The position numbers were made by a program, and so were the translations under genes. Shown in pieces: positions 34,489-51,511 of a stretch of DNA of 64,000 bases. The notes below the pieces were generated by a model. The model was not told where the DNA came from. It ran no database searches and saw only the letters and a list, made by a program, of their open reading frames with translations. Origin of the DNA: Sphingomonas paeninsulae (GTDB lineage: Bacteria > Pseudomonadota > Alphaproteobacteria > Sphingomonadales > Sphingomonadaceae); contig NZ_CP032829.1 of assembly GCF_003660165.1 (NCBI RefSeq), positions 2,555,001-2,619,000 on the forward strand, in the 5' to 3' direction. Within the stretch, counting starts at the first letter, position 1. Every line of letters begins with the position of its first letter.

Positions 34489-35451
34489 ATGCCCGCCACC
34501 CATTCCACGCGTATGTTGATTCTCGGTTCGGGGCCTGCGGGTCTGTCGGCTGCAATTTATGGCGCGCGGGCGGGCATGTCGCCGATCGTGGTTCAGGGGA
34601 TTCAGCCTGGCGGCCAGTTGATGACGACAACCGATGTAGAGAATTATCCGGGCTTCAAGGATGTGATCCAGGGGCCGTGGCTGATGGAACAGATGCAGGC
34701 GCAGGCCGAACATGTCGGTGCTCAGATGATGTGGGATACGATCGTCGATATCGACTTGTCGCAGCGGCCGTTCCGGCTGATCGGCGATGGCGGCACGGTT
34801 TATACAGGCGACACGCTGGTGATTGCGACCGGTGCTCAGGCGAAATGGCTGGGACTGGACAGCGAAGAGGCATTGAAGGGCAAGGGTGTCAGCGCCTGCG
34901 CAACCTGCGACGGATTTTTCTATCGCGGCAAGAAGGTGGTCGTGATCGGCGGCGGCAATACTGCGGTCGAGGAAGCGCTTTATCTCACCAACCACAGCCA
35001 CGATGTGACGCTGATCCACCGCAAGGACCATTTCCGCGCAGAAAAGATTTTGCAGGAACGTCTGTTCAAACATCGCGGGATCAAGGTGCTGTGGAACAAG
35101 CGCGTCGACAAATTTGTCGGGGGTGGCGATCCAGAAGGTCTGATCGGCCTTGACCTGATCGACACCGTGACGGGAGAGGCTTCGCACATCGGCACCGATG
35201 GCGGCTTCGTCGCAATCGGGCATCATCCGGCGACTGAGTTGTTCAGGGGGCATCTTGAACTGGATGCGGATAGCTATCTAAAGGTCGAAACGGGTTCGAC
35301 CCGAACGAGCGTCCCCGGTGTGTTCGCGTGCGGCGATGTGATGGACAAGATTTATCGTCAGGCCGTCACGGCGGCTGGGACGGGGTGCATGGCGGCGCTG
35401 GACGCCGAGCGCTTCCTGGCCGAGGCGGATTTCGAGGCGGTTACCGCCTAA
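34489..35451 (+). CDS. trxB: Thioredoxin reductase
   Basis: A 320-residue NADPH-dependent flavoprotein that keeps thioredoxin reduced. FAD loop GSGPAGLSAAIYGARAG (~13-29), redox pair C137-ATC140 in GVSACATCDGFF, NADPH loop VIGGGNTAVEEALYL (~153), and the C-terminal FAD block GVFACGDVMD (~278) are all present. The first 8 residues are a short extension. Its end overlaps the convergent XrtA hydrolase gene by 4 bases. It is probably a housekeeping neighbour rather than part of the polysaccharide system. Confidence 0.97.
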   Translation: MPATHSTRMLILGSGPAGLSAAIYGARAGMSPIVVQGIQPGGQLMTTTDVENYPGFKDVIQGPWLMEQMQAQAEHVGAQMMWDTIVDIDLSQRPFRLIGDGGTVYTGDTLVIATGAQAKWLGLDSEEALKGKGVSACATCDGFFYRGKKVVVIGGGNTAVEEALYLTNHSHDVTLIHRKDHFRAEKILQERLFKHRGIKVLWNKRVDKFVGGGDPEGLIGLDLIDTVTGEASHIGTDGGFVAIGHHPATELFRGHLELDADSYLKVETGSTRTSVPGVFACGDVMDKIYRQAVTAAGTGCMAALDAERFLAEADFEAVTA

Positions 35452-36245
35452 GCGCTTAACTGAGCAAGGACGGTTTGCAGGAGCATCGCGAAGTCGGCCA
35501 CGCTGGCGAAGCTGTGCGATGGGCTGTCGAAGGTCGTGAGATGGACCGCCGGATGGGCGCGGGCTGCAGCGAATGCGTCGCTTTGCCACGTATCGGAGAA
35601 AGCGGCTGCGGTGCCGTCCCTGCTTGCTAACAATATGCTGACGGGGATGGTTGATGCGGCCAGCGCCGTTGCAAACGATTCGGCAATAGGCGCATTGCGT
35701 TTCGGCTGGGCCAGCCGACCAAGGCCACGAGCCAGCGCCCGCATATCGATCCGCCCTGTCAAAAGCGCCGCCCAGGCAGCGGGATCGCGCATTCGCCGGA
35801 CGTACCGGCTTTTTATGGCAGCAGCAGGGGGCAAGTCGTCGATGGGCGGGACTACCCAGGGATTGGCGAGGACCAGCGCGTCGACCGCGGTATCCCCCCG
35901 GTATGCGACAAGCGCTGTGGCGGCGTCGCAGTTGCCGAACGCGACGACACGCGTGAGGGCAGGGCACTCCTGCCGAAACGCAGCGACGGCAGAGGCAATG
36001 TCGGGGCCGCTGGACTCATACCCACCGTTCGAGCCCGCGGAATCCCCAACGCCGCGCCGGTCGAAGCGGAGGACTGGATAGCCCTCGGACGCGACGGTTG
36101 CGGCGAGTTCGGCCATGCCGCGATGCGCGCCAATGCGGATTTCATTGCCACCGGAGACGATCAGTAGCCCGGTATTCCGGTCGCCGCTGTCCAGAGTGGC
36201 AGCCAGTTCCACGCCCTCGCATGTGAAAGTCAGGTTGCGACGCAT
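35448..36245 (-). CDS. Hydrolase 1, exosortase A system-associated
   Basis: A 265-residue alpha/beta-hydrolase. GGNEIRIGAHRGMAELA (~33) is the conserved entry of the XrtA-associated hydrolase 1 group, followed by RFDRRGVGDSAG (~62) and VAFGNCDAATALVAY (~102). The nucleophile elbow reads GNCDA, a cysteine instead of the usual serine, followed by SPSHSFAS near the end with the histidine. The ATG at 36245 lies inside the last codons of hydrolase 2 (16-base overlap). Substrate unknown; the gene is found with XrtA loci, so it probably acts on a product or carrier-bound intermediate of that system. Confidence 0.88.
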   Translation of the reverse strand: MRRNLTFTCEGVELAATLDSGDRNTGLLIVSGGNEIRIGAHRGMAELAATVASEGYPVLRFDRRGVGDSAGSNGGYESSGPDIASAVAAFRQECPALTRVVAFGNCDAATALVAYRGDTAVDALVLANPWVVPPIDDLPPAAAIKSRYVRRMRDPAAWAALLTGRIDMRALARGLGRLAQPKRNAPIAESFATALAASTIPVSILLASRDGTAAAFSDTWQSDAFAAARAHPAVHLTTFDSPSHSFASVADFAMLLQTVLAQLSA

Positions 36246-36946
36246 TGGGCAGTCCAATCTGCGATAGCCGCGCTTGCCGTCGCCACGAAGTCGGGATCAT
36301 CGCCCGGTTCGGCATTGCGCCATAGCCGTGTCCCCAGCAGCGAACTGTCGCGCAGCCCGACGTCCTCCGTCAGTCGCGCGGTGTGCCGGTTTGCGGCCTG
36401 TAAGGGCGCGGTCAGCAACTCATTATACAGCGCAGGTGATATAACCTGCCCAGCCAGCGCGGTCGCCTCAGCGCGCGCCCTGCGGTCGATCTCGGTCGCC
36501 GATACCCCGGACGACAGCGCAGTCGCCCGCACCAGATCACGCAGCACCCGCTCACCGGTTTCCGGGGCCAGTCGCCATCCAAAATCGGCAAGGCCATCCA
36601 ATATCGCACCGCCCCGAATCGCCAACGTCAGGCATCGCCCCGTTTCCTCACGGCCCGCCCCACGCCCCGCCCCACGCATAGCATCCGCCAGCGCCCCGAC
36701 AGCATCACGCCAGTCATCCAGTGAAACATTCGCAAGCGGGGTCAGACTTTCCCCCGTCCCCGGTAAATCGGGCAACACGCTCCCGATCCCCCGAACGGCA
36801 AGCGCGCGCATCACCGACACGGTAAACCGCCGCATCCGGTTGGCTTCCTCGAACAACGCTGGCAGCACCAGAACGGTCACCGGCAAGCCTTCACCATGAC
36901 GCAGCAGCATTTCGCTACCGCCGCGCCATGAATAGCGTTCGCTCAA
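36230..36946 (-). CDS. Hydrolase 2, exosortase A system-associated
   Basis: A 238-residue alpha/beta-hydrolase-like protein. VLVLPALFEEANRMRRFTV (~24) is the hallmark of this group (PAxFEEANxxRR), with LPDLPGTGES (~59) as the second block. The usual nucleophile elbow GxSxG is not obvious; LAIRGGAILDG (~108) occupies that place, so catalytic residues are uncertain. It starts at an ATG overlapping the ACP stop as ATGA (36943-36946) and overlaps hydrolase 1 by 16 bases, so the three are expressed as one unit with ACP. Role unknown. Confidence 0.87.
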   Translation of the reverse strand: MSERYSWRGGSEMLLRHGEGLPVTVLVLPALFEEANRMRRFTVSVMRALAVRGIGSVLPDLPGTGESLTPLANVSLDDWRDAVGALADAMRGAGRGAGREETGRCLTLAIRGGAILDGLADFGWRLAPETGERVLRDLVRATALSSGVSATEIDRRARAEATALAGQVISPALYNELLTAPLQAANRHTARLTEDVGLRDSSLLGTRLWRNAEPGDDPDFVATASAAIADWTAQCVAT

Positions 36947-37215
36947 CCGGCTACTTTGTGAACGGCATAGTCCGTGAGCGATCCGAACGTAGCCAACAGA
37001 TCACCGTCGACATCGTCATCGTCGATCACGATGTCCAGACGGTCCTCCAACTCGGTCAACAATCCCGCAACCGCCATCGAATCGAGTTCAGGCAACGCGC
37101 CGAACAGCTCCGTAGAATCGGTAAAGGCATCGGCACGCGCGGCGTCGATCGACAGCACATCACGAAGCACCAAACGCACCGTTTGTTCGATTTCCTGGTG
37201 ACTTTTTGTCGTCAT
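36943..37215 (-). CDS. Acyl carrier protein of the XrtA locus
   Basis: A 90-residue acidic carrier protein. The phosphopantetheine serine is S46 in LPELDSMAVAGLL, followed by acidic helix III (LDIVIDDDDVDGDLL). The ATG at 37215 is chosen for the GGGG five bases upstream; an ATG at 37230 is also in frame. This is not the housekeeping AcpP: it sits in a minus-strand operon with two hydrolases and the acyltransferase, across the control region from an acyl-CoA ligase that could load it. The acyl group is unknown. Confidence 0.92.
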   Translation of the reverse strand: MTTKSHQEIEQTVRLVLRDVLSIDAARADAFTDSTELFGALPELDSMAVAGLLTELEDRLDIVIDDDDVDGDLLATFGSLTDYAVHKVAG

Positions 37216-37251
37216 GCGTGCCCCATTCACATTACCAAAGCAGCGCGCCGA

Positions 37252-38277
37252 TTACCGAGTCCGCACGCGCGCGACAAGCGCCCCGGCTTTTGCGCGTAAT
37301 GCACCAGTAAGTCCCGACACGGTTCGCGTGTTGAACAAAGTCAGCGTGAACAGCGGCGCGCGCGCGTCCATCCAGTCGCGTTTGTAGCGATCGTCCCCGG
37401 TTCCGAAGTCGATCAAATGCACCTTGTCCACATCGATGGCGCGTTCGAACATCGCCGTGCTCATCAGGCTGCCGGGTGAAAACTCGGCCGCGCTGTCGCG
37501 GTGGGCAAGCTTGTGGATGATCGCAACGCCATTTTCCGTGGTCCACAACTGGGCCGCAACCGGATTGCCGTCGATCCGCCCGATCCCCAGTCGCAAATTC
37601 CCTGCCGCACCCTCTTCTTCGGCCATCGCGCGCAGAAATCGGTTCGAACCTTCTTCGGGCTTCCAGCTATCGGCATAGACGCTTTCGTAATCGTCCCAGG
37701 TATCCTCGTCGAACCGATCGAATATGGTGATATCCAGACCAGCTTTCGCGCCTTTACGCTTAACCGTGGACCGCAACTCCCCCGGTCGCGCCGCCCAATA
37801 ATCGGCGAAACTCTGGCCGGTGACATCGACCGTCCAGTTGCAGCTTGTCTCGGTCGCGGTGGCCGACCAGTGCGCACGCCGAAAAGCACGGCTCAGCAGG
37901 TCGGTGTTTTCCAACGTCATTGGCGAAAGGCGGATCGACGTCAGCCGCTTGCCAGCCCGACGCGCGATCGCGGTCAGTAACGCAACCGCAGTCCTGTCCT
38001 CGGGCGTGCCGGTGAATACCGGCCCGAACTTCAATGAATACCAGCTTGCCAGCGCAAAAGCCTTGCCCTGACCGTCCTCGGCCAGAAACAGCCACGCATC
38101 CGAACCATCGGCGCGGGCGCGGGTAATCAGCGGATAGGGCGCAGGGGGGCAATGCTCCATCGTGCGGGCAAACCAGTCGAACCTGTCGAACAGCGACGCT
38201 TGCGCTTCCCGCTCCAGTCCCGCTGCGCTCCCCTTTGCATCGGCAAGGTTACGGAATATTTCACCCTTTACCCACAA
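37252..38277 (-). CDS. GNAT/FemAB-like acyltransferase of the XrtA locus
   Basis: A 341-residue protein of the GNAT superfamily in the FemAB/BioF2-like form. The core segment SFADYWAARPGELRSTVKRKGAKAG (~165) and the C-terminal block NPVAAQLWTTENGVAIIHKLAHRDSAAEFSPGSLMSTAMFE...VHLIDFGTGDDRYKRDWM (~243-305) are typical of this group. No ATG suits the N-terminus; TTG at 38277 is used, with a G6 stretch ~10 bases upstream. It probably transfers an acyl or aminoacyl group, perhaps from the adjacent ACP, onto a lipid or sugar. First gene of the left-hand XrtA operon. Confidence 0.85.
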   Translation of the reverse strand: MWVKGEIFRNLADAKGSAAGLEREAQASLFDRFDWFARTMEHCPPAPYPLITRARADGSDAWLFLAEDGQGKAFALASWYSLKFGPVFTGTPEDRTAVALLTAIARRAGKRLTSIRLSPMTLENTDLLSRAFRRAHWSATATETSCNWTVDVTGQSFADYWAARPGELRSTVKRKGAKAGLDITIFDRFDEDTWDDYESVYADSWKPEEGSNRFLRAMAEEEGAAGNLRLGIGRIDGNPVAAQLWTTENGVAIIHKLAHRDSAAEFSPGSLMSTAMFERAIDVDKVHLIDFGTGDDRYKRDWMDARAPLFTLTLFNTRTVSGLTGALRAKAGALVARVRTR

Positions 38278-38299
38278 AACGCATTATCCCCCCGGCCAA

Positions 38300-38336
38300 C
38301 CGCATGGTGCGGCAAATGGTCCCGCATGGTGCGGCA
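38300..38336. promoter_or_regulatory. Tandem palindromic operator between the two XrtA operons
   Basis: Two identical 15-base copies of CCGCATGGTGCGGCA lie at 38300-38314 and 38322-38336. Each contains a short inverted repeat (CCGCA-TGG-TGCGG), and the copies start 22 bases apart, two turns of the helix, so two protein dimers could bind the same face. They lie in the 76-base gap between the divergent acyltransferase and acyl-CoA ligase genes, immediately before an AAAGGAG ribosome site. The binding protein is unknown. Confidence 0.6.
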
Positions 38337-38353
38337 TAGTTAAAGGAGCAGGT

Positions 38354-39861
38354 GTGGAAGAGCCAGACCCGGTCCCGCGTCCCCTCGATCATCTGTTCCT
38401 TCGCGGGACTCCCGATGCGCCCGCTTTGATTACCAAAGCGGTAACATTGAATTATTCACAGGCCGAACACGCCGTCGGTACGCTGGCGACTGCGCTGAAG
38501 GCGCGGGGGCTGTCACAGGGCGCGCGCGTGGCGACATGGCTACCCAAGACGGTCGAAGCGTGCCTGATGCCGCTGGCGACGGCGCGAGCGGGACTGGTGC
38601 ATATTCCAGTGAACCCAATGTTACGCCGTGCTCAGGTTGCTCACATTCTGGCCGATAGCGGTGCCGAACTTTTACTGACGACCGCAGGACGGGCAGCGAC
38701 ACTCGAACCGGGCGATCTGGCCGACGCAAGCATATGGTTCGAACCCGACGCCATAGCGGCGCGCGGGCAGGGTGTTCCTTTGAAACCATCAAGTGCCGAT
38801 CCCGATGTCCTGACCGCAATCCTCTACACATCGGGGTCCACCGGTCGGCCAAAGGGTGTGATGCTCAGCCACGCCAATCTCTGGCTCGGTGCGATCAGCG
38901 TCGCACATTATCTGAAACTGACGCCTGCCGACCGCACGCTGGCGGTTCTGCCGCTGGGTTTCGATTACGGCCAGAACCAGCTTTTTTCGACATGGGCGGC
39001 GGGTGGCGCGGTCATTCCCTTCGACTATCTGGTTCCCCGCGATGTTGTTCGCGCGATCGAACGTGAAAAGATTACCACGCTGGCCGCTGTTCCGCCCCTT
39101 TGGCTGCAATTGGTCGAAAGCGAATGGCCGGACATCGCCGCACAATCGGTAAAGCGGCTGACCAATTCGGGCGGTGCGCTGACGCCGGGATTGATCGACC
39201 GGATGCAGACGACATTTCCGAACGCCGACATTTATCCGATGTACGGGCTGACAGAGGCATTTCGATCGACCTATCTCGATCCCACACTGGTTGCCGCGCA
39301 CCCGACTTCGATGGGCAAGGCTATTCCGTTTGCAGAAATTATGGTCGTGGCAGCAGACGGGACGCAGGCAAAGGTCGGCCAACCCGGCGAACTTGTCCAT
39401 GCGGGACCACTGGTGGCTCAGGGGTATTGGCACGACGCCGAACGGACAGCCTTGCGGTTTCACGACGCGCCGTCATGGTCGCGCTATGGGGCAGGGCAGT
39501 CTGGTCGGGCGACACGGTAAAGCGTGATGCAGAGGGGCTATTGTATTTTGTTGGGCGGGAAGACGAGATGATAAAGACATCGGGCCACCGGGTCAGCCCG
39601 CTCGAGATCGAGGAAGCCGCGCTTGCCAGCGGTGTCGTTGGCGAAGCCGTGGCTCACGGCATTTACGACGAGCGTCTGGGGCAGGCGATCCGCCTCGTCG
39701 CGCGCGGTGACGCTATAGGGGAGACCGCGTTGCGTGCGCATTTGAAAGCTGAATTGCCGAGCCATATGCAACCGCGCGTCGTTGAATGGCGCGCCGAACT
39801 GCCGCGCAATGCGAATGGCAAGATCGACCGGGCGGCTATTCGTGCAGAGGCTATTTCGTGA
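38354..39861 (+). CDS. Acyl-CoA ligase (AMP-forming), exosortase A system-associated; one frameshift as sequenced
   Basis: An adenylating enzyme of about 502 residues once corrected. Start GTG 38354, with AAAGGAG 5 bases upstream; the open frame extends further back without coding character. The AMP-binding loop is YTSGSTGRPKGVMLSH (~157), then MYGLTEAFRSTYLDP (~296). The frame breaks at the G4 run 39488-39491; one added G restores GGRAVWSGDTVKRDAEGLLYFVGREDEMIKTSGHRVSP and the catalytic-lysine end NANGKIDRAAI. It activates an unknown carboxylic acid, possibly for the locus ACP. Its stop overlaps the decarboxylase GTG start by 4 bases. Confidence 0.9.
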
Positions 39862-41057
39862 AGCCGTCGGGCAACATACCGCGCTGGTTCGATGGCGCGC
39901 GCATGACGGCTGCAATGGAACATAGTGACGTCACGCCGTCATTCTTTTACGACTTCGGCATCGTTCGGGAAAAGGTCGCGATGCTGCGCGGGGCGCTGCC
40001 CGCAGGCGTCGGCATCCATTACGCGATGAAGGCCAATCCGCTGCCCGCAATGGTGTCGGCGATGGTGGCACTCGTTGACGGTATCGACGTCGCGTCGGGA
40101 GGCGAACTGGCAGTTGCCCTGAAGGCTGGGGCTGTTCATATTTCCTTCGCTGGCCCCGGAAAGCGCGATGCCGAGCTAGAGTCTGCGATCCGTGCGGGGA
40201 GCACGATCAATCTCGAATCCGAAACAGAGGCGACGCGCGCCCTGTCGATTGCCGAACGGCTGGGCATGACGCCACGCCTTGCCGTGCGGGTGAACCCGGA
40301 TTTTGCTCTTAAAGGCTCGGGCATGAAGATGGGCGGTGGCGCCGCCCCCTTCGGCGTCGATGCAGAACGGGTTCCGGCGCTGGTCAAACGCCTGATCGCG
40401 ACAGGGGCCGACTGGCGGGGGTTTCATATTTTTGCGGGCAGTCAGGCGCTCGATAGCGGCGCGATTGCCGATACTCAGGCGGCGACCGTCGCACTGGCGG
40501 GAAAACTTGCGCAAGAAGTCGGGGCCACGCCACCGCTGGTCAATCTCGGCGGCGGATTCGGTATTCCGTATTTCGCGGGTGAACAACCGATAGATGTCGC
40601 GATGATCGGAGAGCGCCTTGGCGGAGTGCTGGAAAACCGCGACTCGATTTTGAAGGACAGTAAATTCGCTATCGAACTCGGACGCTGGCTGGTCGGGGAG
40701 TGCGGCATTTATCTGACGCGCGTTGTCGACCGCAAGGAAAGCCGGGGGGAAATTTTCCTCGTGACCGATGGCGGACTACATCATCAACTGGCGGCAAGCG
40801 GCAATTTTGGCACCGTCGTCCGGCGGAATTACCCGATTGCAGTCGCGAATCGATTCGGTTTCGATGTGGAGGAAACCGTCAGCGTCGTCGGCTGCCTTTG
40901 CACGCCGCTCGACCGACTGGGCGATCAGGTTGGCCTGCCGCGCGCCGACGTGGGCGATGTCATCGCAGTATTCATGGCGGGTGCTTATGGAGCTTCGGCC
41001 AGCCCTGCGTCGTTTTTGGGACACAGCCCTGCACGCGAAGTGCTGACCAAAGTTTAG
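39858..41057 (+). CDS. PLP-dependent decarboxylase, exosortase A system-associated
   Basis: A 399-residue fold-type III (alanine-racemase-like) decarboxylase related to diaminopimelate/ornithine decarboxylases. PLP lysine K58 in HYAMKANPLP, VASGGELAVALKAG (~75), VNLGGGFGIPYF (~229) and the C-terminal CTPLDRLGDQVGLP...FMAGAYGASASPASF block are clear. Start is GTG 39858 overlapping the ligase stop. The substrate in XrtA loci is not known; an amino-acid-derived amine, later joined to the acyl group made by the ligase, is a reasonable guess. A 114-base gap follows before the export genes and may hold a second promoter. Confidence 0.92.
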   Translation: MKPSGNIPRWFDGARMTAAMEHSDVTPSFFYDFGIVREKVAMLRGALPAGVGIHYAMKANPLPAMVSAMVALVDGIDVASGGELAVALKAGAVHISFAGPGKRDAELESAIRAGSTINLESETEATRALSIAERLGMTPRLAVRVNPDFALKGSGMKMGGGAAPFGVDAERVPALVKRLIATGADWRGFHIFAGSQALDSGAIADTQAATVALAGKLAQEVGATPPLVNLGGGFGIPYFAGEQPIDVAMIGERLGGVLENRDSILKDSKFAIELGRWLVGECGIYLTRVVDRKESRGEIFLVTDGGLHHQLAASGNFGTVVRRNYPIAVANRFGFDVEETVSVVGCLCTPLDRLGDQVGLPRADVGDVIAVFMAGAYGASASPASFLGHSPAREVLTKV

Positions 41058-41171
41058 CTAAACGCTATATAAACCCTTTTTGGGCTATTCCGAATTGACC
41101 CCGTGGCCCGAGGTGCGCCCTGTGCGCATTTGCGGATGTGACGTCGTGGGATGGATTTAGAGGTGTTATTG

Positions 41172-41810
41172 ATGCGTTTCTCGTCACTGGTGCTGGGTAT
41201 CAGCGTTTCCGCCGTGTTGCTTTCGGGCTGCTCCGGGAGCCGTTCGGGTAGCCAACTGCCGCCTGCTGCTTTCGTCAGCGCCACGGGCGACGGACCGAGC
41301 GACGAATATGTCATTGGGCCGCTCGATCAGCTTACCATCTTCGTCTGGCGCAATCCCGAACTCGGCGCAAAGGTTCAGGTGCGACCCGATGGGCGTATAA
41401 CGACGCCGCTGATTTCCGACTTGCCAGCGGTGGGCAAGACGCCTGCCCAGCTATCGGCCGACATCAAGACGGCCTTGTCTGCCTATATCAACGATCCGCG
41501 CGTTTCGGTGATCGTCGATAATTTTTCAGGCACCTTCTCGCAACAGGTCCGCATCGTCGGTGCGACTGAAAAGCCAGCATCGATTCCTTATCGTGCGAAC
41601 ATGACGCTGCTCGACGCCATGATCGCTGTCGGCGGCCTTTCCGAGCGCGCCTCGGGTGATCGGGCGCGTTTGATCCGTGCCGACCGCAAGACCGGCAAGC
41701 AGGTCGAATTTCAGCTAAAGCTCAGCAAGTTGTTGAGGCAGGGTGATTCGACGGCCAACGTCCGGCTCGAACCTGGCGACGTCATTATCATCCCAAGCAG
41801 CGCCTTCTGA
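41172..41810 (+). CDS. XrtA-associated polysaccharide export lipoprotein (Wza-like)
   Basis: A 212-residue outer-membrane export protein. The ATG at 41172 opens a lipoprotein signal (MRFSSLVLGISVSAVLLSGCSGS, lipid cysteine at ~20). The Poly_export domain starts DEYVIGPLDQLTIFVWRNPELG (~44) and contains VRPDGRITTPLISDLPAVGKTPAQL; a SLBB domain follows (GATEKPASIPYRANMTLLDAMIAVGGL, ~138). Such proteins form the outer-membrane gate for exopolysaccharide. Length is shorter than Wza, usual for this group. Its stop and the next start share a base (TGATG). Confidence 0.93.
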   Translation: MRFSSLVLGISVSAVLLSGCSGSRSGSQLPPAAFVSATGDGPSDEYVIGPLDQLTIFVWRNPELGAKVQVRPDGRITTPLISDLPAVGKTPAQLSADIKTALSAYINDPRVSVIVDNFSGTFSQQVRIVGATEKPASIPYRANMTLLDAMIAVGGLSERASGDRARLIRADRKTGKQVEFQLKLSKLLRQGDSTANVRLEPGDVIIIPSSAF

Positions 41811-43348
41811 TGAACGGCCTGTACGACGAGCTTCTGGTTGCGCTGCACGGCATCTGGCTGCGGCGCTGGCTTGCTCTCGGCGTAGGGTGGGCGATTGCGC
41901 TTGTCGGCTGGACTGTCGTCGGCATGATTCCGAACCGATATGAATCGGTGTCGCGCATCCTGATCCAGACGAACTCGCTGTTGCCCGACAAGGTTGGAAT
42001 TACTTCGCAGGATCAGCAGCAGGGCATCGAATCGGTACGTCAGACATTGCTGTCGGCGGTCAATTTGCAACAGGTCGTGCGCGGGACCGATCTGGCGCAG
42101 CGTGCCAAGACGGACAAGGCTGTTGCCGACGCCGCAGCCGGACTGACGAAGAATATCAAGATCATCTCGCAGCAGGATAATCTGTTCGAAATCAGCGCGT
42201 CGTCGGGTGATTCGAGCTTGTCGGACGCAACCAACGCAAAGCTGTCGCGCCAGATCGTCCAGAAACTGATCGACCTGTTCGTGGATGGCAATTTGGCTGG
42301 CGGGCGGATGGAAACCGGCCAGACGCTGACGTTTCTGAATGCTCAGCTTAATCTGCGCGGCCAGCAACTCGCCGATGCAGAGGCAAAGCGTCAGCAGTTT
42401 TCTGAGAAATATATGGCGCTGTTGCCCGGCACCGGTTCGATCTCCGACCGGATCGACGCCGCCCGGACCGAAATGTCGCGCATCGATGGCGACCTCAGTG
42501 CCGCGCAGAGCGGTCTGGCGGCGGTTAATGGACAGCTTGCCGCGACGCCTGCTGCAACGCGCACTCCTGGCACAATGTCTGCGGGGGCAGTCGGCGACGG
42601 TCGCGCGGCTGCGATTCAGGCTCAGATTGCTGATGGACAGGCGCGCGGCTGGACCAACGCACATCCGGATATGGTGGCTCTGCGCAACCAGCTCGCCCGC
42701 ACGCCCGCTGGCGGTGGTGGAACTGGCAGTATGAGCGCGGGAACGTCCACTCCGAACCCGATGTACGTCAGTTTACGGTCTATGCAGGCCGAAAAACAGG
42801 CCGTTGCGGGTGCGTTATCGTCCAGAAAGGCGCAGATTCAGGCCCAAATCAACGGTGTTCTGGCTGCGCAGGCCGCAAATCCCGAAATGGCGGCCCAACA
42901 AACCGAGCTTGATCGGAACTACACTGTCCTGAAAACGCAGTACGATAAAATGCTCGCCGACCGAGAGGATGTGAAGCTCCGCGGCCAGGTCCAGACCCAG
43001 ACCGATGCCATAAAATTCAGCGTTATCGACCCACCCTCCGCCCCTCGAATCCCGGCAGCACCGAATCGCCCTCTTTTGCTAACGCTGGTGCTGCTCGTCG
43101 CTCTCGCCGGTGGTGCCGGAGCCGCTTTCGCACTGGGCCAGCTACGCAAAACCTACGCCACCGCCCCCCGCCTCGCTGCGGCAAGTGGGTTGCCGGTTCT
43201 CGGTTCAATCGGGGAGGTAATCCCGCAGGCCGAAAAGACCGAGCGTCGCCGCAAACTCAAACTGTTCGCAGGCGGCGGAGCAGCACTGGCTGGGGTCTAT
43301 GCAATCCTGATGATCGTAGAGTTTATCCAGCGGAGCATGGTGGCATGA
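41810..43348 (+). CDS. XrtA-system polysaccharide chain-length determinant (Wzz-like)
   Basis: A 512-residue inner-membrane protein with a membrane span near the start (WLALGVGWAIALVGWTVVGM, ~17-36), a long periplasmic coiled coil (~60-400), and two spans near the end (LLLTLVLLVALAGGAGAAF ~420-440 and AALAGVYAILMIVEFI ~490-505). The N-terminal Wzz block (VSRILIQTNSLLPDK) and the C-terminal PPSAPRIPAAPNRP proline block before the last spans are typical. It sets polysaccharide chain length and contacts the tyrosine kinase encoded next (ATGA overlap). Confidence 0.92.
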   Translation: MNGLYDELLVALHGIWLRRWLALGVGWAIALVGWTVVGMIPNRYESVSRILIQTNSLLPDKVGITSQDQQQGIESVRQTLLSAVNLQQVVRGTDLAQRAKTDKAVADAAAGLTKNIKIISQQDNLFEISASSGDSSLSDATNAKLSRQIVQKLIDLFVDGNLAGGRMETGQTLTFLNAQLNLRGQQLADAEAKRQQFSEKYMALLPGTGSISDRIDAARTEMSRIDGDLSAAQSGLAAVNGQLAATPAATRTPGTMSAGAVGDGRAAAIQAQIADGQARGWTNAHPDMVALRNQLARTPAGGGGTGSMSAGTSTPNPMYVSLRSMQAEKQAVAGALSSRKAQIQAQINGVLAAQAANPEMAAQQTELDRNYTVLKTQYDKMLADREDVKLRGQVQTQTDAIKFSVIDPPSAPRIPAAPNRPLLLTLVLLVALAGGAGAAFALGQLRKTYATAPRLAAASGLPVLGSIGEVIPQAEKTERRRKLKLFAGGGAALAGVYAILMIVEFIQRSMVA

Positions 43349-44250
43349 ACATGATTCGTACTACACCGCTGGTCGCTGACTCGACCCCAAAATCATCGCT
43401 GATCGAACGCGCCGCAGAGGTCTATGATTTCGCTCTGGTCGCCCGCCCGCCCGTCGTCGCGGCCCCCTTCGAACAGCCCGTTGTTCCAGCAATCGTACAA
43501 CCTCGCCGCGGACCTAACCCAATCGTTCCGGTTGATCCAGATCGCTTGCGAGAAGCCGGGTTCATCATTCCCGATGGACCCCCGGGCACGTTGGTCGAAG
43601 AGTTCCGACTGGTGAAACGCCAGTTGATTCTGAACGCCAATGGCGGCGCAAAAGGGCAGCCGATCGAACATGGCCGGATGATCCTGGTCTGCTCCGCTCA
43701 ACCCAATGAGGGCAAGACGTTCTGCGCGGTCAACCTGGCGCTCAGCCTTGCCAGCGAACGCGACACTGAAGTGCTGCTGGTCGATGCTGATGTCGCCAAA
43801 CCCGAAGTCCTTTCCACGCTTGGCCTGGAAGGGGACGCGGGCTTGATGGACGCGCTCGCCGATCCGACGATCGACGTCGAGAGCCTCGTCATCCGTACCA
43901 ATATCGCCAAGCTGAGTGTGCTTCCTGCGGGCAAGGCTGCTCACGATGACAATGAATTGCTGGCATCCGCACGTACCAAAGTCGTGTTGGAAAGCCTCGC
44001 CACATCTAACCCGAACCGCATCGTGATTTTTGATTCTGCACCTGCGCTGGCGGCATCGCCCGCTTCGGTGCTGGCGCTCCATGTCGGGCAAGTACTGATG
44101 ATTGTCCGCGCGGATCGCACGACCGAAGCCGAACTCAAAGATGCCATCGCGCTGGTCGATGGCTGTGAAAATATCAGCCTGTTGCTCAACGCCGCGAGTT
44201 TCGCTGGCGGGACAAGGAGCTTTGGCTCGTATTACGGACACGATAAATGA
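43345..44250 (+). CDS. XrtA-associated tyrosine autokinase
   Basis: A 301-residue BY-kinase. After an N-terminal linker comes FIIPDGPPGTLVEEFRLVKRQLI (~73), Walker A CSAQPNEGKTFCAVNLALSL (~116), Walker A' VLLVDADVAKPEVLSTLGL (~143) and Walker B RIVIFDSAPAL (~226). The C-terminus has only a short tyrosine tail (SFGSYYGHDK), as expected for the stand-alone kinase whose transmembrane activator is the chain-length protein. Phosphorylation cycles control polysaccharide polymerisation. Both ends overlap neighbouring genes as ATGA. Confidence 0.92.
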   Translation: MNMIRTTPLVADSTPKSSLIERAAEVYDFALVARPPVVAAPFEQPVVPAIVQPRRGPNPIVPVDPDRLREAGFIIPDGPPGTLVEEFRLVKRQLILNANGGAKGQPIEHGRMILVCSAQPNEGKTFCAVNLALSLASERDTEVLLVDADVAKPEVLSTLGLEGDAGLMDALADPTIDVESLVIRTNIAKLSVLPAGKAAHDDNELLASARTKVVLESLATSNPNRIVIFDSAPALAASPASVLALHVGQVLMIVRADRTTEAELKDAIALVDGCENISLLLNAASFAGGTRSFGSYYGHDK

Positions 44251-45866
44251 TTCTGCGGTTCCTTCTGATGGCCGGCGCTGCCGGTGCTATCGTCTTTGCG
44301 CCCCCGGCGCGGGCCGAGCATAGTACTGAGGTTCATCCTTATCTCGAAGTTGACCAGACGGTTTTCGGTGATCTGAATAACGGCGGCGGAACGTCTGCCT
44401 ATACGACTGCCGCAGCCGGCATCGACGCCTCAATCAGTACCCCGCGCACCGAAGGCCAGATCAGCTATCGGTACGAACATCGTTTCGGATGGGACAAAAA
44501 CACTGGCGATGGAGATACCCATTCGGGTCTCGCGCGCGGCCAATATGTGGTTGTACCAAACCTGCTGCGGATCGAGGCTGGGGCGCTCGCCACGCGGACG
44601 CGCAACGATTTACCCGGCATCGGCGCAAATCCGGTGATCGGCAATGCGGACAATGTGTCGCAGCTTTATTCGGTTTATGCCGGACCAACGCTCGCGACCC
44701 GCGTCGGGGATCTAGATGTCGGTGCCGCTTATCGCTTTGGTTATACAAAGCTGGACAATCATCTCGGCAACTTACCCGCCGGACAGACCGATCTCGGCGG
44801 TTTCGATTCATCGACCAATCATGTGCTGGCGGCCAATGTCGGTATGCGGGTCGGAGTCCTGCCGATCGCATGGAATGTCAGCGGCGGTTATGAGCGCGAG
44901 GATCAGAGCGAACTCGATCAACGCTTCGAAAGCGGCTTTGTGCGAGCGGACGTGACTGTCCCGGTATCCCCGACGCTCGCAGCGGTGGGCGGCGCGGGTT
45001 ACGAGAAAATCAGATCGAGCGCGCGCAATGCCCTTGTTGACGACGCGGGCAATCCAGTTCTCAATGGAAACGGAAGTTTCGTGACCGATCCTGCCAGTCC
45101 GCGGCTGCTCGATTACGACCAATCCGGGTTTATCTGGGATGTCGGCATATTATGGCGACCAAGCCAACGCACCTCGCTCGAGGCGCGGGTTGGACGCCGT
45201 TACGGTAGTATGACGTACATCGGCTCATTCTCGTATCAACCGAGCGACGACATGGCTTTTCAGGTCGGCGTATATGACGGCGTCCAGACGTTCGGACGTC
45301 AGATCGACGCGTCACTGTCTAGCTTGCCGACGCAATTCACCTTGCAGCGCAATCCTTTCGGCGGCTCGATCGGAGGCTGCGTGTTCGGCACTTCGGGCGG
45401 AAGTGCGGGGGGCAGCGGCGCGGGCGGTTGCCTGAACGATGCGCTGCAATCAATCATTGGCGGCACATATCGATCGCGTGGTGTCAATGCTGTCTGGCGT
45501 TATTCGCGCGGGCCGTGGCTGGCCGGCCTCGGCCTTGGTTATGCGGAGCGGACCTTCCTCGACTCGCGCGGTGTGTTGGCGGCAGTCAATGGATCGAAGG
45601 ATCGCGGCTATTACGTGCAGGCCAATCTGGGGCGGCGGCTGACGTCACATTCGGGCATTGATGGTACTGTCTATATCGACTGGTACGAACCGGGTTTTCC
45701 GGGTGCGCAGGACGTGCTCGGCACGGGCGCGACGGGCAGTTATTATCATAATTTCAGCAATCACCTGACCGGCACGGCGACGCTCGGCTTATATTCGACC
45801 CGCGTCCAGGATGTTGATTCATCTTTGATCGGTGCGGCTCAAGTCGGCGCCCGGTATCGGTTCTAG
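44247..45866 (+). CDS. XrtA/PEP-CTERM system-associated outer-membrane beta-barrel
   Basis: A 539-residue protein with a signal peptide (FLLMAGAAGAIVFAPPARA, cleaved before EHSTEVHPYLEVDQTVFGDLN). The rest is repeated amphipathic beta strands rich in Gly/Tyr/Arg (LGYAERTFLDSRG, VNAVWRYSRGPWLAGLG, ATLGLYSTRVQDVD) and ends in a C-terminal aromatic, VGARYRF, the usual outer-membrane barrel signature. This is the XrtA-linked barrel family, thought to help polysaccharide or protein cross the outer membrane. A cysteine pair region (GGCVFGTSGG...GGCLND, ~375-395) forms a glycine-rich loop, probably disulfide-closed. Confidence 0.88.
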   Translation: MILRFLLMAGAAGAIVFAPPARAEHSTEVHPYLEVDQTVFGDLNNGGGTSAYTTAAAGIDASISTPRTEGQISYRYEHRFGWDKNTGDGDTHSGLARGQYVVVPNLLRIEAGALATRTRNDLPGIGANPVIGNADNVSQLYSVYAGPTLATRVGDLDVGAAYRFGYTKLDNHLGNLPAGQTDLGGFDSSTNHVLAANVGMRVGVLPIAWNVSGGYEREDQSELDQRFESGFVRADVTVPVSPTLAAVGGAGYEKIRSSARNALVDDAGNPVLNGNGSFVTDPASPRLLDYDQSGFIWDVGILWRPSQRTSLEARVGRRYGSMTYIGSFSYQPSDDMAFQVGVYDGVQTFGRQIDASLSSLPTQFTLQRNPFGGSIGGCVFGTSGGSAGGSGAGGCLNDALQSIIGGTYRSRGVNAVWRYSRGPWLAGLGLGYAERTFLDSRGVLAAVNGSKDRGYYVQANLGRRLTSHSGIDGTVYIDWYEPGFPGAQDVLGTGATGSYYHNFSNHLTGTATLGLYSTRVQDVDSSLIGAAQVGARYRF

Positions 45867-45895
45867 GCAGCAGAAGTTTCAGGGAAGTATGCGCA

Positions 45896-46939
45896 ATGTA
45901 CACTGACTATTACGGTCTGACCGCCCCGCCGTTTCAGCTAACGCCCGACGCTCGTTTCTGGTTTGCCAGCGGCACGCATAAAAAGGCGATGGCGTATCTT
46001 GGCTATGGGCTGGCGCAAGGTGAAGGCTTTATCGTTGTCACCGGAGACATCGGCGCGGGCAAGACGACGCTGACCGGCCATCTAATGGCTACAATCGACC
46101 CGGCACGGGTTGCGGCGATCCAAATCGTTTCGACGCAGGTTGAGGGCGACGACATGCTCCGCCTTACCGCGCAAGGACTGGGACTGCCGACAGAGGGCGT
46201 GGAGAAGGCGCAGTTACTCGACCGGATCGAACGACATCTGGCCGAAACCGGGCGGGGTGGGCGGCGGACTTTGCTGATCATCGACGAAGCGCAGAACTTG
46301 CCGACTTCGGCGCTTGAAGAATTGCGGATGCTGTCCAATTTTCAGGCGGGTGGTCATCCGCTAATGCAAATATTTCTCTTGGGACAACCGGAATTTCGTG
46401 ATCGGCTCGCTGAATCGGAGCAGCTCGAACAACTCCGTCAGAGGGTCATCGCGACGCATCACCTCGACCCAATGAAGCCGGACGAGACGCGGGGTTATCT
46501 TGAGCATCGTTTGACCACAGCAGGTTGGACGGGGCGTCCTGCCCTGACCGACGAGGCGTGCCAGATGCTCCACGGTGCAAGCGGTGGCGTTCCGCGCAAA
46601 CTGAACACGCTGGCGACGCGGGCACTGTTGATGGGTGCGCTGGAGAAGGCGGACACGGTCGATGGTATCATCGTCGCGCAAGTCGTGGCCGATCTCGATG
46701 GTGATCGTCCAAAGGTTGTCGTTCAAATTTCATCGCCGCCGAGACAGCCCTTGCATGCCGTCAATGTCGAGCATCAGCAGTCACAAACCAATCCCCGCAC
46801 CGTCGATCACGAAGTACGGATTGCCATGCTCGAATCGCAAATCCGCGAACAGGAAGCTGCCTTGCGCCGTGTCTTGACGCTGTTGGTTGACTGGGTGGAG
46901 CGCGACGAACCCGCAATGGCCCGCGCACCCGCCGCCTGA
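45896..46939 (+). CDS. XrtA/PEP-CTERM system-associated AAA ATPase (ExeA-like)
   Basis: A 347-residue ATPase starting MYTDYYGLTAPPFQLTPDARFWF, the standard entry of this ExeA-like family. Walker A is GDIGAGKTTLTGHLM (~50), Walker B is TLLIIDEAQNLP (~122), sensor region FLLGQPEFRDRL (~155), and the AAA lid follows to about residue 265. The final ~80 residues are a proline-rich and coiled-coil tail. AGGGAAG 10 bases upstream is the ribosome site after a 29-base gap. Its role in the XrtA system, probably organising export or peptidoglycan passage, is not established. Confidence 0.92.
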   Translation: MYTDYYGLTAPPFQLTPDARFWFASGTHKKAMAYLGYGLAQGEGFIVVTGDIGAGKTTLTGHLMATIDPARVAAIQIVSTQVEGDDMLRLTAQGLGLPTEGVEKAQLLDRIERHLAETGRGGRRTLLIIDEAQNLPTSALEELRMLSNFQAGGHPLMQIFLLGQPEFRDRLAESEQLEQLRQRVIATHHLDPMKPDETRGYLEHRLTTAGWTGRPALTDEACQMLHGASGGVPRKLNTLATRALLMGALEKADTVDGIIVAQVVADLDGDRPKVVVQISSPPRQPLHAVNVEHQQSQTNPRTVDHEVRIAMLESQIREQEAALRRVLTLLVDWVERDEPAMARAPAA

Positions 46940-46956
46940 ACCTGTTAGGACGGGCC

Positions 46957-47813
46957 ATGCTCAACGCGCTTTCGGTCGATATCGAGGACTGGTTTCAGGT
47001 CGGAGCCTTTGAAAGAGTGATTGACCGTGCCGACTGGGACAATCTGGAATGCCGTGTCGAGCGCAACACCGATGCCGTCATCGCGCTGTTTGCCGAAACC
47101 GGCGTCAAGGCAACGTTCTTTACGCTTGGCTGGGTTGCGCATCGTTATCCGGCATTGATCCGACGTATCGTCGCGGCGGGGCACGAGGTCGCAAGCCACG
47201 GCTGGGATCACGCACGGGTGTTCACTATGACGCCTGCGGAATTCAAAGCCGATCTGAAGCGTGCGCGCGATATTCTCGAAGATGCAGCCGGATGTCCCGT
47301 CACCGGATACCGCGCGCCGAGTTTTTCGATCGATAAGCGTACACCATGGGCGCATGAAGTCCTTGCCGAAGCGGGCTATCGCTATTCGTCGAGCGTCGCT
47401 CCGGTAAAGCACGATCATTACGGCTGGCCCGAAGCGCCGCGTTTTGCGTTTCAGCCCGTTGCCGGAGTGCGTTGACTGAATTGCCCGTAACAACGGCGAT
47501 TTTCGCTGGCCGGACACTGGCGGCTGGGGGCGGGGGATTCTTTCGCCTGTTGCCTTATGCCTTTTCCTCATGGGCGATCCGACAGGTAAATGCGGCGCAG
47601 CAGCCCGCGACGTTCTATTTCCATCCGTGGGAGATCGATCCCGACCAACCACGCGTCGCCAATGCGCCGATGCGTTCGAAAATACGGCATTATTCGCGGC
47701 TGGACGCCATGGCCGATAAACTGCGTCATGTAGTTCGCGATTTCGAATGGGGCCGTGTGGACGAGGTTATCGAGACTTATAGCGGCGCGGGCCGGGAATC
47801 GATCGCTGCGTGA
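46957..47813 (+). CDS. XrtA-system polysaccharide deacetylase, one frameshift as sequenced
   Basis: A NodB-fold deacetylase. Metal and catalytic motifs: LSVDIEDWFQ with the catalytic aspartates (~6), TFFTLGWVAHRYP, VASHGWDHARV (histidine ligands, ~79) and GYRAPSFSID (~117). The frame breaks near 47464-47475: one frame stops at 47475 after FAFQPVAG while the next continues LTELPVTTAIFAGRTLAAGGGGFFRLLPYAFS to 47813. Adding one G to the GG at 47464-47465 gives AGSALTELPVTT, matching the family pattern, and a 285-residue protein. It trims acetyl groups from the polysaccharide. Its end overlaps the FemAB-like gene by 4 bases. Confidence 0.9.
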
Positions 47814-48835
47814 CGGTCGTTCGATTGGCTGATTTGAGTTCGGCCGCCGATTGCGCCGCGATCGATGATTTCCTCGCCACCCATTCCGAAACCACCCCCT
47901 TTCACCGCCGCGAATGGATCGAGGCGGTCGCAAAGGGATGCGGACAAAAGGCGCACTATCTGATCGTGGGCGCACCCGTTTCGGGCTTGGTGCCGCTCAA
48001 CGAACTTCATTCGCCTTTGTTCGGTCGCGCCCTCGTTTCCAGCGGGTTTGCCGTTGGCGGCGGCATTATCGCCGATGACGAGGCTACGGCTGATGCATTG
48101 GCAACGGCGGTCTGGAAACTGGCGGGAAGTTTGTCGTGTCCAACCGTCGAACTGCGTGGCGGACGTTTGCCCAAAGATTGGCCGCAGGACGTTACGACCT
48201 ATCTCGGGTTTGCGCGTGATCTGGCTGTGGATGACGAGGCCGAATTGCTTGCCATTCCGCGCAAGCAACGCGCGGAGGTGCGTAAGGCGCTAACCAATGA
48301 GCTGACAGTCGATTTCGGCGACCATGATGCGCACTATGCGGTTTATGCAGAGAGCGTCCGCAACCTCGGCACTCCGGTGTTTCCCAGAGCGTTGTTTGCC
48401 GCGATTCTCGACGCGTTTGGCGACGATGCGGATATCTTGACGGTCAGGCATAATGGTGTGCCGCTCGCCAGCGTGTTGAGCCTTTATCACCGTAGCGTCG
48501 TGATGCCATATTGGGGTGGTGGCACGGCGGCGGCGCGACCGGTGCGGGCGAACGACATGATGTATTTCGCGCTGATGCGACGCGCGCGCGAACGGGGATG
48601 CATGCGTTTCGACTTCGGACGGTCGAAAACCGGAACGGGAGCCGCTGCGTTCAAGCGCAACTGGGGTTTCGAGGGTGTGCCGCTGGCCTATGTCAAGCGC
48701 ACCGCGGATGGACAGGCCGCGCGTGAGATCAATCCGCTCGACCCACGATACAGCCTTCAGGTCAAACTCTGGTCGAAGCTGCCGCTCGCTGTTGCCAACC
48801 GCCTTGGTCCAATGATTTCGCGTGGGCTGGGCTGA
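47810..48835 (+). CDS. FemAB-family XrtA/PEP-CTERM system-associated protein
   Basis: A 341-residue double-GNAT protein related to FemAB and lipid II aminoacyltransferases. Seen: THSETTPFHRREWIEAVAKGCGQKAHYLIVG (~24), LLAIPRKQRAEVRKALTNE (~145), LASVLSLYHRSVVMPYWGGGTAAARPVRANDMMYFALMRRARERGCMRFDFGRSKTGTGAAAFKRNWGF (~220-285). It starts with GTG overlapping the deacetylase stop. It probably transfers an aminoacyl or acyl group during polysaccharide or carrier modification; the donor and acceptor are unknown. It shares distant ancestry with the acyltransferase in the left operon. Confidence 0.92.
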   Translation: MTVVRLADLSSAADCAAIDDFLATHSETTPFHRREWIEAVAKGCGQKAHYLIVGAPVSGLVPLNELHSPLFGRALVSSGFAVGGGIIADDEATADALATAVWKLAGSLSCPTVELRGGRLPKDWPQDVTTYLGFARDLAVDDEAELLAIPRKQRAEVRKALTNELTVDFGDHDAHYAVYAESVRNLGTPVFPRALFAAILDAFGDDADILTVRHNGVPLASVLSLYHRSVVMPYWGGGTAAARPVRANDMMYFALMRRARERGCMRFDFGRSKTGTGAAAFKRNWGFEGVPLAYVKRTADGQAAREINPLDPRYSLQVKLWSKLPLAVANRLGPMISRGLG

Positions 48836-49980
48836 TGGGTGAAATCCTGTTTCTTGCACACCGACTGCCATACCCGCCCGATCGCGGTGACCGGATCAGA
48901 TCCTGGCATATTCTTCGGGCGCTGGCGAAAATCGCACCGATCCATGTCGCTTCGTTAATTGACCACGAAGCCGATCGCGTTCACCTGGCGACGGTTGAGA
49001 GCGTGGCCGTCAGTGTGACCGTAGAACCTCGCGATCCATCGAAGTTGCGTGCAATGATGGCGGCGCTACTGCGAGGGACACCTGCATCGGTGGAGGCATT
49101 TCGTAATCAGGCGCTGAAAACCAAGGTCGATGCGCTGCTAATGACTCGTCCAATCGACTGTATCTACGCCTTTTCCGGACAGATGGCGGCCTATGTTCCT
49201 CCCGAGTTCGGTGGGCGGTTCATCATGGATTTCGTCGATATGGATTCGGCCAAGTTTGAACAGCTTGGTGGTTTTGCCAATCGTCAGGAGGCCCGGCGGC
49301 TTTTGCGCTGGGAGACCGAGGCAGCCGGTCGCGCGGCGGTGTCGCTGTTTGTCAGCGATGCCGAAGTGGGGCTTTTCGAGAGCAAAACAGGTTTGGCTGC
49401 AACAATGTTGGGCAATGGTATCGATCTCGATCAATTCGATCCCGATCATGTTGAACCGGTTCCAAAGACTGGTCCCCTGATCGTGTTTACGGGTCAAATG
49501 GATTACGCGCCGAACATCGAGGCAGTGGTGGATTTCACGCACACGCAACTTCCTGCGATTATCGCAGCCGTTTCTAACGTGAAATTCGCAATCGTGGGAC
49601 GTGCCCCGGCGCCCCAAGTGCTGAACCTCGCTGGCCCCGACGTAATCGTGACTGGGGAAGTTACTGACACGCGACCGTGGCTCGCAGCCGCCGATGTCGT
49701 GGTGGCTCCTCTGAAACTGGCGCGCGGGGTGCAGAACAAGGTTTTGGAAGCGATGGCGATGGCGCGTCCTGTCGTCGCATCGACAGCCGCCGCATTGGGA
49801 ATCGACGCCGTGTATGGTCGCGATCTTATTGTGTCGGATAATGCGGCATCTGCGGTGATTGACCTGTTTCAAAATCCGACACGCGCCACCGCAATCGGGG
49901 CCGCCGCCCGCACCCGTATGCTGGAGTATTATCCCTGGGACGCTCAACTGGTTCCGCTGGCCGGAATCGTCGCCGGATGA
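48835..49980 (+). CDS. XrtA/PEP-CTERM system glycosyltransferase (TIGR03087-like)
   Basis: A 381-residue GT-B glycosyltransferase. The N-terminus EILFLAHRLPYPPDRGDRIRSWHILRAL (~3-30) is the signature of this XrtA-linked group. The donor-binding half has MLGNGIDLDQFDPDHV (~194), IVFTGQMDYAPNIEAV (~214) and GVQNKVLEAMAMARPVVAS (~299), with the EAMAMARPVV glutamate contacting the nucleotide sugar. It adds a sugar during repeat-unit assembly. Stop and start overlaps on both sides (TGATG and ATGA) tie it to its neighbours. Confidence 0.93.
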   Translation: MGEILFLAHRLPYPPDRGDRIRSWHILRALAKIAPIHVASLIDHEADRVHLATVESVAVSVTVEPRDPSKLRAMMAALLRGTPASVEAFRNQALKTKVDALLMTRPIDCIYAFSGQMAAYVPPEFGGRFIMDFVDMDSAKFEQLGGFANRQEARRLLRWETEAAGRAAVSLFVSDAEVGLFESKTGLAATMLGNGIDLDQFDPDHVEPVPKTGPLIVFTGQMDYAPNIEAVVDFTHTQLPAIIAAVSNVKFAIVGRAPAPQVLNLAGPDVIVTGEVTDTRPWLAAADVVVAPLKLARGVQNKVLEAMAMARPVVASTAAALGIDAVYGRDLIVSDNAASAVIDLFQNPTRATAIGAAARTRMLEYYPWDAQLVPLAGIVAG

Positions 49981-51509: not shown

Positions 51510-51511
51510 CA

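Follow-up and report, generated by a model that had tools for sequence, protein, structure and literature searches.

What exosortase A (XrtA) attaches PEP-CTERM proteins to is treated as an open question in the parts of the literature that concern it (PMC1569441, PMC7468200). The XrtA gene set studied here, from Sphingomonas paeninsulae, occupies positions 35448-53410 of a window of 64,000 nucleotides, the whole stretch of DNA that was analysed (contig NZ_CP032829.1, positions 2,555,001 to 2,619,000), in a genome of 3.99 Mb on three contigs. The computation covered the genes present, the residues of binding pockets, the closest structural relatives, fold predictions and co-occurrence. The set includes genes for a ligase, an acyl carrier protein (ACP) and a pyridoxal phosphate (PLP)-dependent decarboxylase, and we consider it probable, at roughly 0.75, that these three provide a carrier-bound route to an aminoacyl donor. 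Each of the reactions that we propose is already known from natural products.

In the biosynthesis of AFC-BC11, AfcQ activates L-aspartate and loads it onto AfcK, and AfcP decarboxylates Asp-S-AfcK to yield β-alanine, as described in vitro (PMC12186527). Likewise, in the vicenistatin pathway with its proteins VinN, VinL and VinO, the amino acid is loaded first and then decarboxylated on the ACP (PMC11284099). In the pocket of VinN, an aspartate binds the amino group of the substrate (PMC11284099), and an arginine, Arg331 in VinN and correspondingly Arg311 in AfcQ, binds the α-carboxylate (PMC12186527). A different kind of precedent is the type IX secretion system (T9SS), in which VimE deacetylates a sugar, VimA, a relative of TIGR03019, adds serine or glycine, WbpS, of the TIGR03108 family, makes a uronamide, and the C-terminus of the protein is joined to the amine of the sugar-borne amino acid (PMC7468200); the system of Prevotella intermedia uses an N-alanyl sugar (PMC11969387). 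The authors of the former study also offered the speculation that exosortases are served by a sugar to which VimA-like proteins have added an amino acid (PMC7468200). In NCBIfam, the locus genes have families of their own, TIGR03098-TIGR03101; these exosortase A system-associated families are hypothetical equivalogs whose names derive from context and to which no reaction is assigned. The notion that these genes produce a special linker is reportedly already found in the descriptions of these families. In the open-access literature, we found no publication that connects these ligase, ACP and decarboxylase families, as parts of exosortase systems, with β-alanyl-ACP or with the chemistry of VinN and BtrK.

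The genes for the proposed route are the following:

38354-39520, plus strand: ligase, N-terminal part, TIGR03098 model positions 6-386 (460.9 bits)
39469-39861, plus strand: ligase, C-terminal part, TIGR03098 model positions 388-517, in a different frame (153 bits)
39858-41057, plus strand: BtrK-like PLP decarboxylase, TIGR03099 (531 bits, cut-off 478.45)
36943-37230, minus strand: ACP, PF00550 (21.4 bits, gathering threshold 20.8)

As assembled, the ligase spans two frames, ending at 39520 and 39861, with one base missing near 39490 relative to 5/5 aligned relatives. Because of this frameshift, its two pieces stay below the TIGR03098 cut-off of 592.35 bits; eight intact homologues, from seven XrtA-bearing genomes and one XrtA-free genome, score 620-780 bits. 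At full length, the homologue L010 matches a nonribosomal peptide synthetase domain of LgrA first among PDB entries (E 1.8e-74), followed by other amino-acid adenylation domains. For the substrate-binding half alone, the top match is VinN (3wv4, E 1.9e-16), and the ligase motifs FDYG, TNS and YGLTEAFR align on Asp230, Ser299 and Arg331 of its pocket. Among 100 aligned ligase rows, the first of these is an aspartate in 99 (1 gap), the second a serine in 95 and a threonine in 4 (1 gap), and the third an arginine in all 100; the alignment rows were not de-duplicated, and L009/L091, L010/L090 and L014/L094 are apparently the same genomes twice. The motifs FD[YA]G and YGLTE[AS]FRS are also found in 15/15 more distant ligases. 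Of seven acyl-CoA-type ligases from this genome, 0/7 have the pocket aspartate, 0/7 the serine or threonine and 1/7 the arginine. Judged by its sequence, the pocket of the ligase is one for amino-acid adenylation, of the VinN/AfcQ type and atypical for an acyl-CoA ligase, and the identity of the enzyme as a fatty-acid acyl-CoA ligase is weakened, if not ruled out, by the pocket residues.

The decarboxylase has as its nearest PDB entry BtrK, the L-glutamyl-[BtrI ACP] decarboxylase of butirosin biosynthesis (235 bits, E 8.8e-69), followed by 6knh (126 bits, E 1.6e-35); the best plainly named diaminopimelate decarboxylase reaches 115 bits. It shares with BtrK the motif CTPxD (here CTPLD), which is present in 98/99 relatives; in 24 decarboxylases of more distant loci, the motif reads CTPxD 18 times and CT[ST]xD 6 times. 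The genome encodes its own LysA, which scores above its family cut-off and carries CESxD instead. This latter motif is absent from the decarboxylase of the window, which also falls short of the diaminopimelate decarboxylase family TIGR01048 (196.8 vs 297.9 bits). On these grounds, the separate LysA and the different motif, we rejected a LysA-like activity that would yield cadaverine or lysine. In a tree, XrtA-associated, rhizobial and Burkholderia rows form one group of 22 (support 91/98, under the star limit of the tool) with the genome's LysA outside; with row L160 miscut and L148 left out, we place little weight on this tree. On the basis of these comparisons, the decarboxylase is BtrK-like and predicted to act on an ACP-bound amino acid. 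A TIGR03099-like decarboxylase is also found on the Azoarcus plasmid pAZKH (L142, 9914-11227; 447 bits, below the cut-off; annotated as alanine racemase), where it adjoins formylmethanofuran genes, and many genomes of family f38 have relatives of about 280 bits; decarboxylases of this type perhaps form a methylofuran branch.

The ACP has 2lki as its best PDB match (E 7.8e-14), and its phosphopantetheine serine is kept in 86/87 rows (1 row unreadable). This is residue 51 from the GTG and 46 from an in-frame ATG, so that the S46 named in a preliminary description of this DNA holds in the latter numbering. In the Sinorhizobium meliloti locus L139, the ACP frame (11136-11381) is short and its end unlike the others, perhaps through a frameshift.

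The combination of an amino-acid pocket with a BtrK-like decarboxylase makes it probable that both enzymes act on one and the same amino acid, the decarboxylase after ACP loading, and we infer the substrate and the order of the reactions as follows. The substrate of the ligase would be an acidic amino acid, with L-aspartate the likeliest, which the enzyme would adenylate at the side-chain carboxylate and load onto the ACP. The decarboxylase would then remove the α-carboxylate on the ACP to give β-alanyl-S-ACP, or γ-aminobutyryl-S-ACP (GABA-S-ACP) if the substrate were glutamate. That an acidic amino acid is turned into the donor in this way is likely, and for β-alanine in particular the odds are somewhat better than even. 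The locus resembles the AFC-BC11 system in its VinN-type ligase, lone ACP and PLP decarboxylase and in a pocket arginine at the described place; it differs in that AFC-BC11 belongs to a lipopeptide cluster without an exosortase. Likewise, the best structural match of the substrate-binding half ties it to vicenistatin, but the VinN route feeds a polyketide synthase. If β-alanyl-ACP is indeed made, a reaction can be assigned to four families named by context, and antibiotic-type chemistry would be found in surface-polymer loci.

The module is linked to exosortase A across genomes. Among 299 genomes of the phylum, including that of S. paeninsulae, exosortase A exceeds its cut-off in 29, TIGR03099 in 26 and both in 24, so that the module is present in 24/29 XrtA genomes vs 2/270 others; of these two, G184 encodes an exosortase-family protein that exceeds the cut-off of TIGR02602, and G146 encodes none. 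In a second sample of 246 genomes from one family, around G330 and mostly of 2.5-5 Mb, XrtA is found in 128, TIGR03099 in 60 and both in 56. The module is accordingly rare without XrtA, but XrtA is common without the module. Fisher values for these counts overstate independence, since the sampled genomes share ancestry. The link to XrtA of a carrier-based assembly line, as the preliminary description had proposed, is borne out in spirit. On a finer scale, 80 Sphingomonadales loci were fetched, 71 of which cover the stretch from hydrolase 1 through the export gene; ligase, ACP and hydrolase 2 are each present in 71/71 of these complete loci, and the cluster is accordingly not a product of chance.

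The remaining features of the set are listed below; TrxB precedes it, and the genes after it, TruA, RmuC, RapZ and a ChvG-like gene, are housekeeping genes.

35448-36257, minus strand: hydrolase 1, TIGR03100 (221.8 bits, cut-off 168.45; PF12146 29.1 bits, cut-off 27)
36230-36946, minus strand: 'hydrolase 2', TIGR03101-like (39.7 bits, cut-off 202.75)
37252-38277, minus strand: PF13480 protein, predicted Fem/MprF-fold aminoacyltransferase (69.9 bits)
38278-38353, unstranded: inter-operon gap of 76 bases that contains a 15-bp direct repeat in two copies
46957-47475, plus strand: XrtA polysaccharide deacetylase, first part (TIGR03006 positions 1-168)
47472-47813, plus strand: XrtA polysaccharide deacetylase, second part (TIGR03006 positions 172-271)
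47810-48835, plus strand: FemAB-family protein TIGR03019, VimA-like (336 bits, cut-off 260)
49977-51509, plus strand: exosortase A, TIGR03109 (335 bits, cut-off 208)
51512-53410, plus strand: XrtA amidotransferase, WbpS-like, TIGR03108 (912.5 bits, cut-off 816.9)

Two of these proteins are candidates for the transfer of the aminoacyl group. An AlphaFold2 (AF2) model of the PF13480 protein, built from 41 sequences, has a predicted local distance difference test score (pLDDT) of 95.1, and its PDB matches are led by FemX (E 2e-13), followed within the top 20 by the streptothricin proteins Sba18/Sbb17, MprF and FemA; it is thus predicted to be an aminoacyltransferase with the double-GNAT fold of Fem and MprF. 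It occurs in 39/71 complete Sphingomonadales loci. The locus FemAB protein (TIGR03019) is found in 68/70 loci with at least 8.5 kb after the decarboxylase, and in 30/30 of the loci that lack the PF13480 protein and have sufficient flank, which makes it, as far as these sequences go, the near-constant candidate aminoacyltransferase. A profile comparison between the two families gives a weak match (E 0.018, probability 2.5%). In the 246-genome family, the module accompanies a high-scoring FemAB in 53/66 cases and a low-scoring one in 3/68, where the threshold was set post hoc between two score groups and shared ancestry was not removed.

The two hydrolase-like proteins differ from each other. 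Hydrolase 1 has a cysteine nucleophile (GNCDA) in 72/73 rows (1 gap) and a conserved histidine in 71/73 (1 arginine, 1 gap), and GxCD recurs in 8/8 loci of other families of the phylum; its sequence makes a thioester acyl- or aminoacyl-transfer enzyme possible. In hydrolase 2, the nucleophile elbow is occupied by Arg111, an arginine in 74/77 rows (3 gaps). Its AF2 model (pLDDT 95.8) has an α/β-hydrolase fold, with a strand at 106-110 followed by a helix at 111-119, and matches feruloyl esterases best in the PDB (E 1.1e-8). Sequence and model point to a non-hydrolytic partner protein as its probable role, and a pair of working hydrolases was rejected for want of the nucleophile in hydrolase 2.

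The preliminary description thus saw the layout correctly, with all six genes of its proposed set present in two divergent operons on either side of the gap at 38278-38353: profile searches place hydrolase 1, the TIGR03101-like protein, the ACP and the PF13480 protein in the minus operon and the ligase followed by the decarboxylase in the plus operon. Several of its assignments need qualification, however. The ligase is split; of the two hydrolases, the first has its cysteine nucleophile but the second has an arginine there and scores below the TIGR03101 cut-off; and the acyltransferase has a predicted transferase-type fold, but its nearest relatives by this predicted fold are the aminoacyltransferases FemX, MprF and FemA. 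Nor is the gap, which it took for a control region, a conserved one. It contains two perfect 15-bp copies of CCGCATGGTGCGGCA (38300-38314 and 38322-38336, 22 bp apart), but in the two nearest relatives the gap measures 43 bases and the repeat is absent; a conserved operator was therefore rejected.

Outside exosortase loci, the module occurs in several settings. In Sinorhizobium meliloti pSymB (L139), Aureimonas pAU20a (L140) and G146 (L150), ligase, decarboxylase and ACP stand with glycosyltransferases and a polysaccharide deacetylase, the trio and the deacetylase together lying within 7 kb in 3/3 of these rhizobial-type loci; an exosortase family match is absent from the plasmid records L139 and L140, whose chromosomes were outside the search, and from the whole genome of G146. 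Nor was an exosortase found on the Burkholderia cenocepacia plasmid L141 or on Paracoccus pAMI5 (L143), where the search covered the plasmid records. On pAMI5, glycosyltransferase-61 genes lie beside a ligase, an ACP and a decarboxylase that score below the cut-offs. On L141, ligase (700 bits) and decarboxylase (559 bits) exceed the TIGR03098 and TIGR03099 cut-offs, and their neighbours, KAS III-like, acyl-CoA-dehydrogenase-like and GNAT genes, resemble a natural-product cluster; since the gene order differs from that in PMC12186527, L141 was not taken to be the afc cluster, and its genes were not used as AfcQ/AfcP. Lastly, in G350, G399, G496 and G455, where XrtA has no match or one below the cut-off, an ACP lies beside ligase and decarboxylase together with an MsbA-like ABC transporter (4/4, by Pfam) and an LpxL-like acyltransferase (3/4); 2/2 of the transporters tested exceed the MsbA cut-off. 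The common part of these contexts is the donor trio, and the acceptor side varies. The preliminary description had held that its proposal would be refuted if these genes occurred in genomes lacking XrtA and had an unrelated role there; half of this applies, since the module does occur where no exosortase was found (G146, G350, G399, G496 and the plasmid records), but its neighbours in these places are genes for glycans, lipids or natural products, which agrees with a donor module that can be reused.

Two further observations concern these plasmid and rhizobial loci. A gene of 289-295 codons precedes the ligase in the rhizobial-type loci (L139 7412-8299, L140 7443-8312, L150 6970-7857) and is conserved among them; it has no Pfam match and no profile match to the family of the PF13480 protein, and its PDB matches are weak ones to N-acetyltransferases (E 0.5). 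To the eye it looks GNAT-like, and it is possibly a GNAT. Natural-product-like loci with KAS III genes and a TIGR03099-like decarboxylase are present on a Tritonibacter (L144) and a Rahnella plasmid (L145), and their ligases are of the VinN type, with aspartate, threonine and arginine kept and a histidine at the place of Lys330.

As to the acceptor, the XrtA locus shares three proteins with the Wbp/Vim branch of the T9SS, namely the deacetylase (frameshifted here), TIGR03019 and TIGR03108. The T9SS differs in using another sortase, and the passages that cover it describe no donor route by ligase, ACP and decarboxylase (PMC7468200, PMC11969387). We infer the transferase and the acceptor as follows: a Fem-type transferase, either the locus FemAB or the PF13480 protein, would take the aminoacyl group, perhaps with the help of hydrolase 1, and attach it to an amino group, for which the likeliest candidate is a sugar amine released by the deacetylase of the locus. 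The trio may in this way supply the amino acid for a Wbp/Vim-like sugar on which XrtA would act. A sugar amine as acceptor remains a tentative assignment. A bolder version, which we hold to be rather unlikely, is that FemAB, being VimA-like, puts β-alanine on the sugar amine freed by the deacetylase and that this sugar-borne β-alanine is the partner of XrtA, which would join the new C-terminus of PEP-CTERM proteins to its amine, in the manner of the T9SS sortase with seryl, glycyl or alanyl linking sugars; where an XrtA lineage lacks the module, a different amino acid would serve. The anchor would then be traceable by mass, as a β-alanine amide at the C-terminus of PEP-CTERM proteins.

Other products and substrates have been weighed against a β-alanyl donor for a sugar. 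An ACP-bound ω-amino acid could instead be destined for a lipid, one that serves as the anchor of the polysaccharide or occurs together with it. The MsbA-like and LpxL-like genes beside the module in G350, G399, G496 and G455 speak for this, as does the presence of MprF, an aminoacyl-phospholipid synthase, among the fold matches of the PF13480 protein; but none of the window proteins that were scanned gave an LpxL- or MsbA-like match, a polysaccharide deacetylase and an amidotransferase are encoded in the locus, and the rhizobial-type XrtA-free loci are glycan loci, so that we regard a lipid acceptor as unlikely. An aminoacylated anchor or decoration, one of the ideas of the preliminary description, is a plausible product, and its aminoacyl-lipid version gains from the four contexts just named. 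Quite unlikely, in our view, is a route through glutamate in which the ligase loads its γ-carboxylate to give GABA-S-ACP, as in butirosin biosynthesis. The nearest solved decarboxylase is indeed the glutamyl-ACP enzyme BtrK, and CTPxD is shared with it, but butirosin differs from the route proposed here in its glutamate substrate, and its loading enzyme belongs to another type than the VinN-type ligase. The ligase pocket, moreover, is nearest to VinN, and VinN/AfcQ-type enzymes are described for 3-methyl-aspartate and aspartate (PMC12186527, PMC11284099).

Very unlikely is the model of the preliminary description itself, in which a fatty or other acid is activated, a free diamine arises from lysine, ornithine or diaminopimelate (DAP) and an N-acyl-amine results. 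It agrees with the family names, acyl-CoA ligase and LysA-like decarboxylase, but not with the amino-acid pocket, the BtrK-type rather than LysA-type decarboxylase or the separate LysA. Separate acid activation and free-amine generation are hence unsupported, and free lysine, ornithine or DAP is an improbable decarboxylase substrate.

Several points weigh against a carrier-bound aminoacyl donor made from aspartate for XrtA. FemX and MprF, to which the PF13480 protein is compared, use aminoacyl-tRNA and not an ACP. In the full-length search with L010, VinN comes later (E 2.9e-50) and CoA ligases are also among the PDB matches. The pocket, as read from the sequence, cannot separate aspartate, glutamate and other acidic amino acids, and the tie to AfcQ/AfcP is through a described residue. 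XrtA genomes that lack the module number 5/29 in the phylum sample and 72/128 in the second, so that the module is not a universal need of XrtA. In nine XrtA genomes of other families, the 20 kb around the decarboxylase hold the ligase in 7, the ACP in 8 and all three in 6/9, but these stretches contain no XrtA or FemAB match; XrtA is at a distance of about 11-107 kb or more, or else on a different contig. The position of VinN Lys330 is a phenylalanine in 100/100 ligase rows. Lys330 is not called defining in the material of PMC12186527 and PMC11284099; the difference limits our claim to an enzyme that works like VinN/AfcQ, not one that is VinN. Finally, the ligase of the window is frameshifted in the assembly, so that the branch may be dead in this strain.

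A separate question is whether the deletions in ligase and deacetylase are real, with the branch decaying in this strain; we put the odds of this slightly below even. The deacetylase is split like the ligase, at about 47475, by a single-base deletion relative to 2/2 aligned relatives, and two such deletions in genes of one predicted pathway favour decay. So does the control, in which 0/11 full-length aldehyde dehydrogenase genes of the genome are split (TIGR01782, also tried as a control, gave partial matches only). On the other hand, at least one other ligase-like gene is split across two frames with one TGA (C3:532179-533758), which makes assembly errors possible, and sorting substrates remain: the genome has 10 PEP-CTERM matches, 9 of them at or above the cut-off, of which at least 7 carry the tail expected. 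The genome also encodes a second exosortase-family protein (C3:1909165-1909938, 142.7 bits to TIGR03109), whose gene is flanked on both sides by PEP-CTERM matches, at C3:1905599 and C3:1907943.

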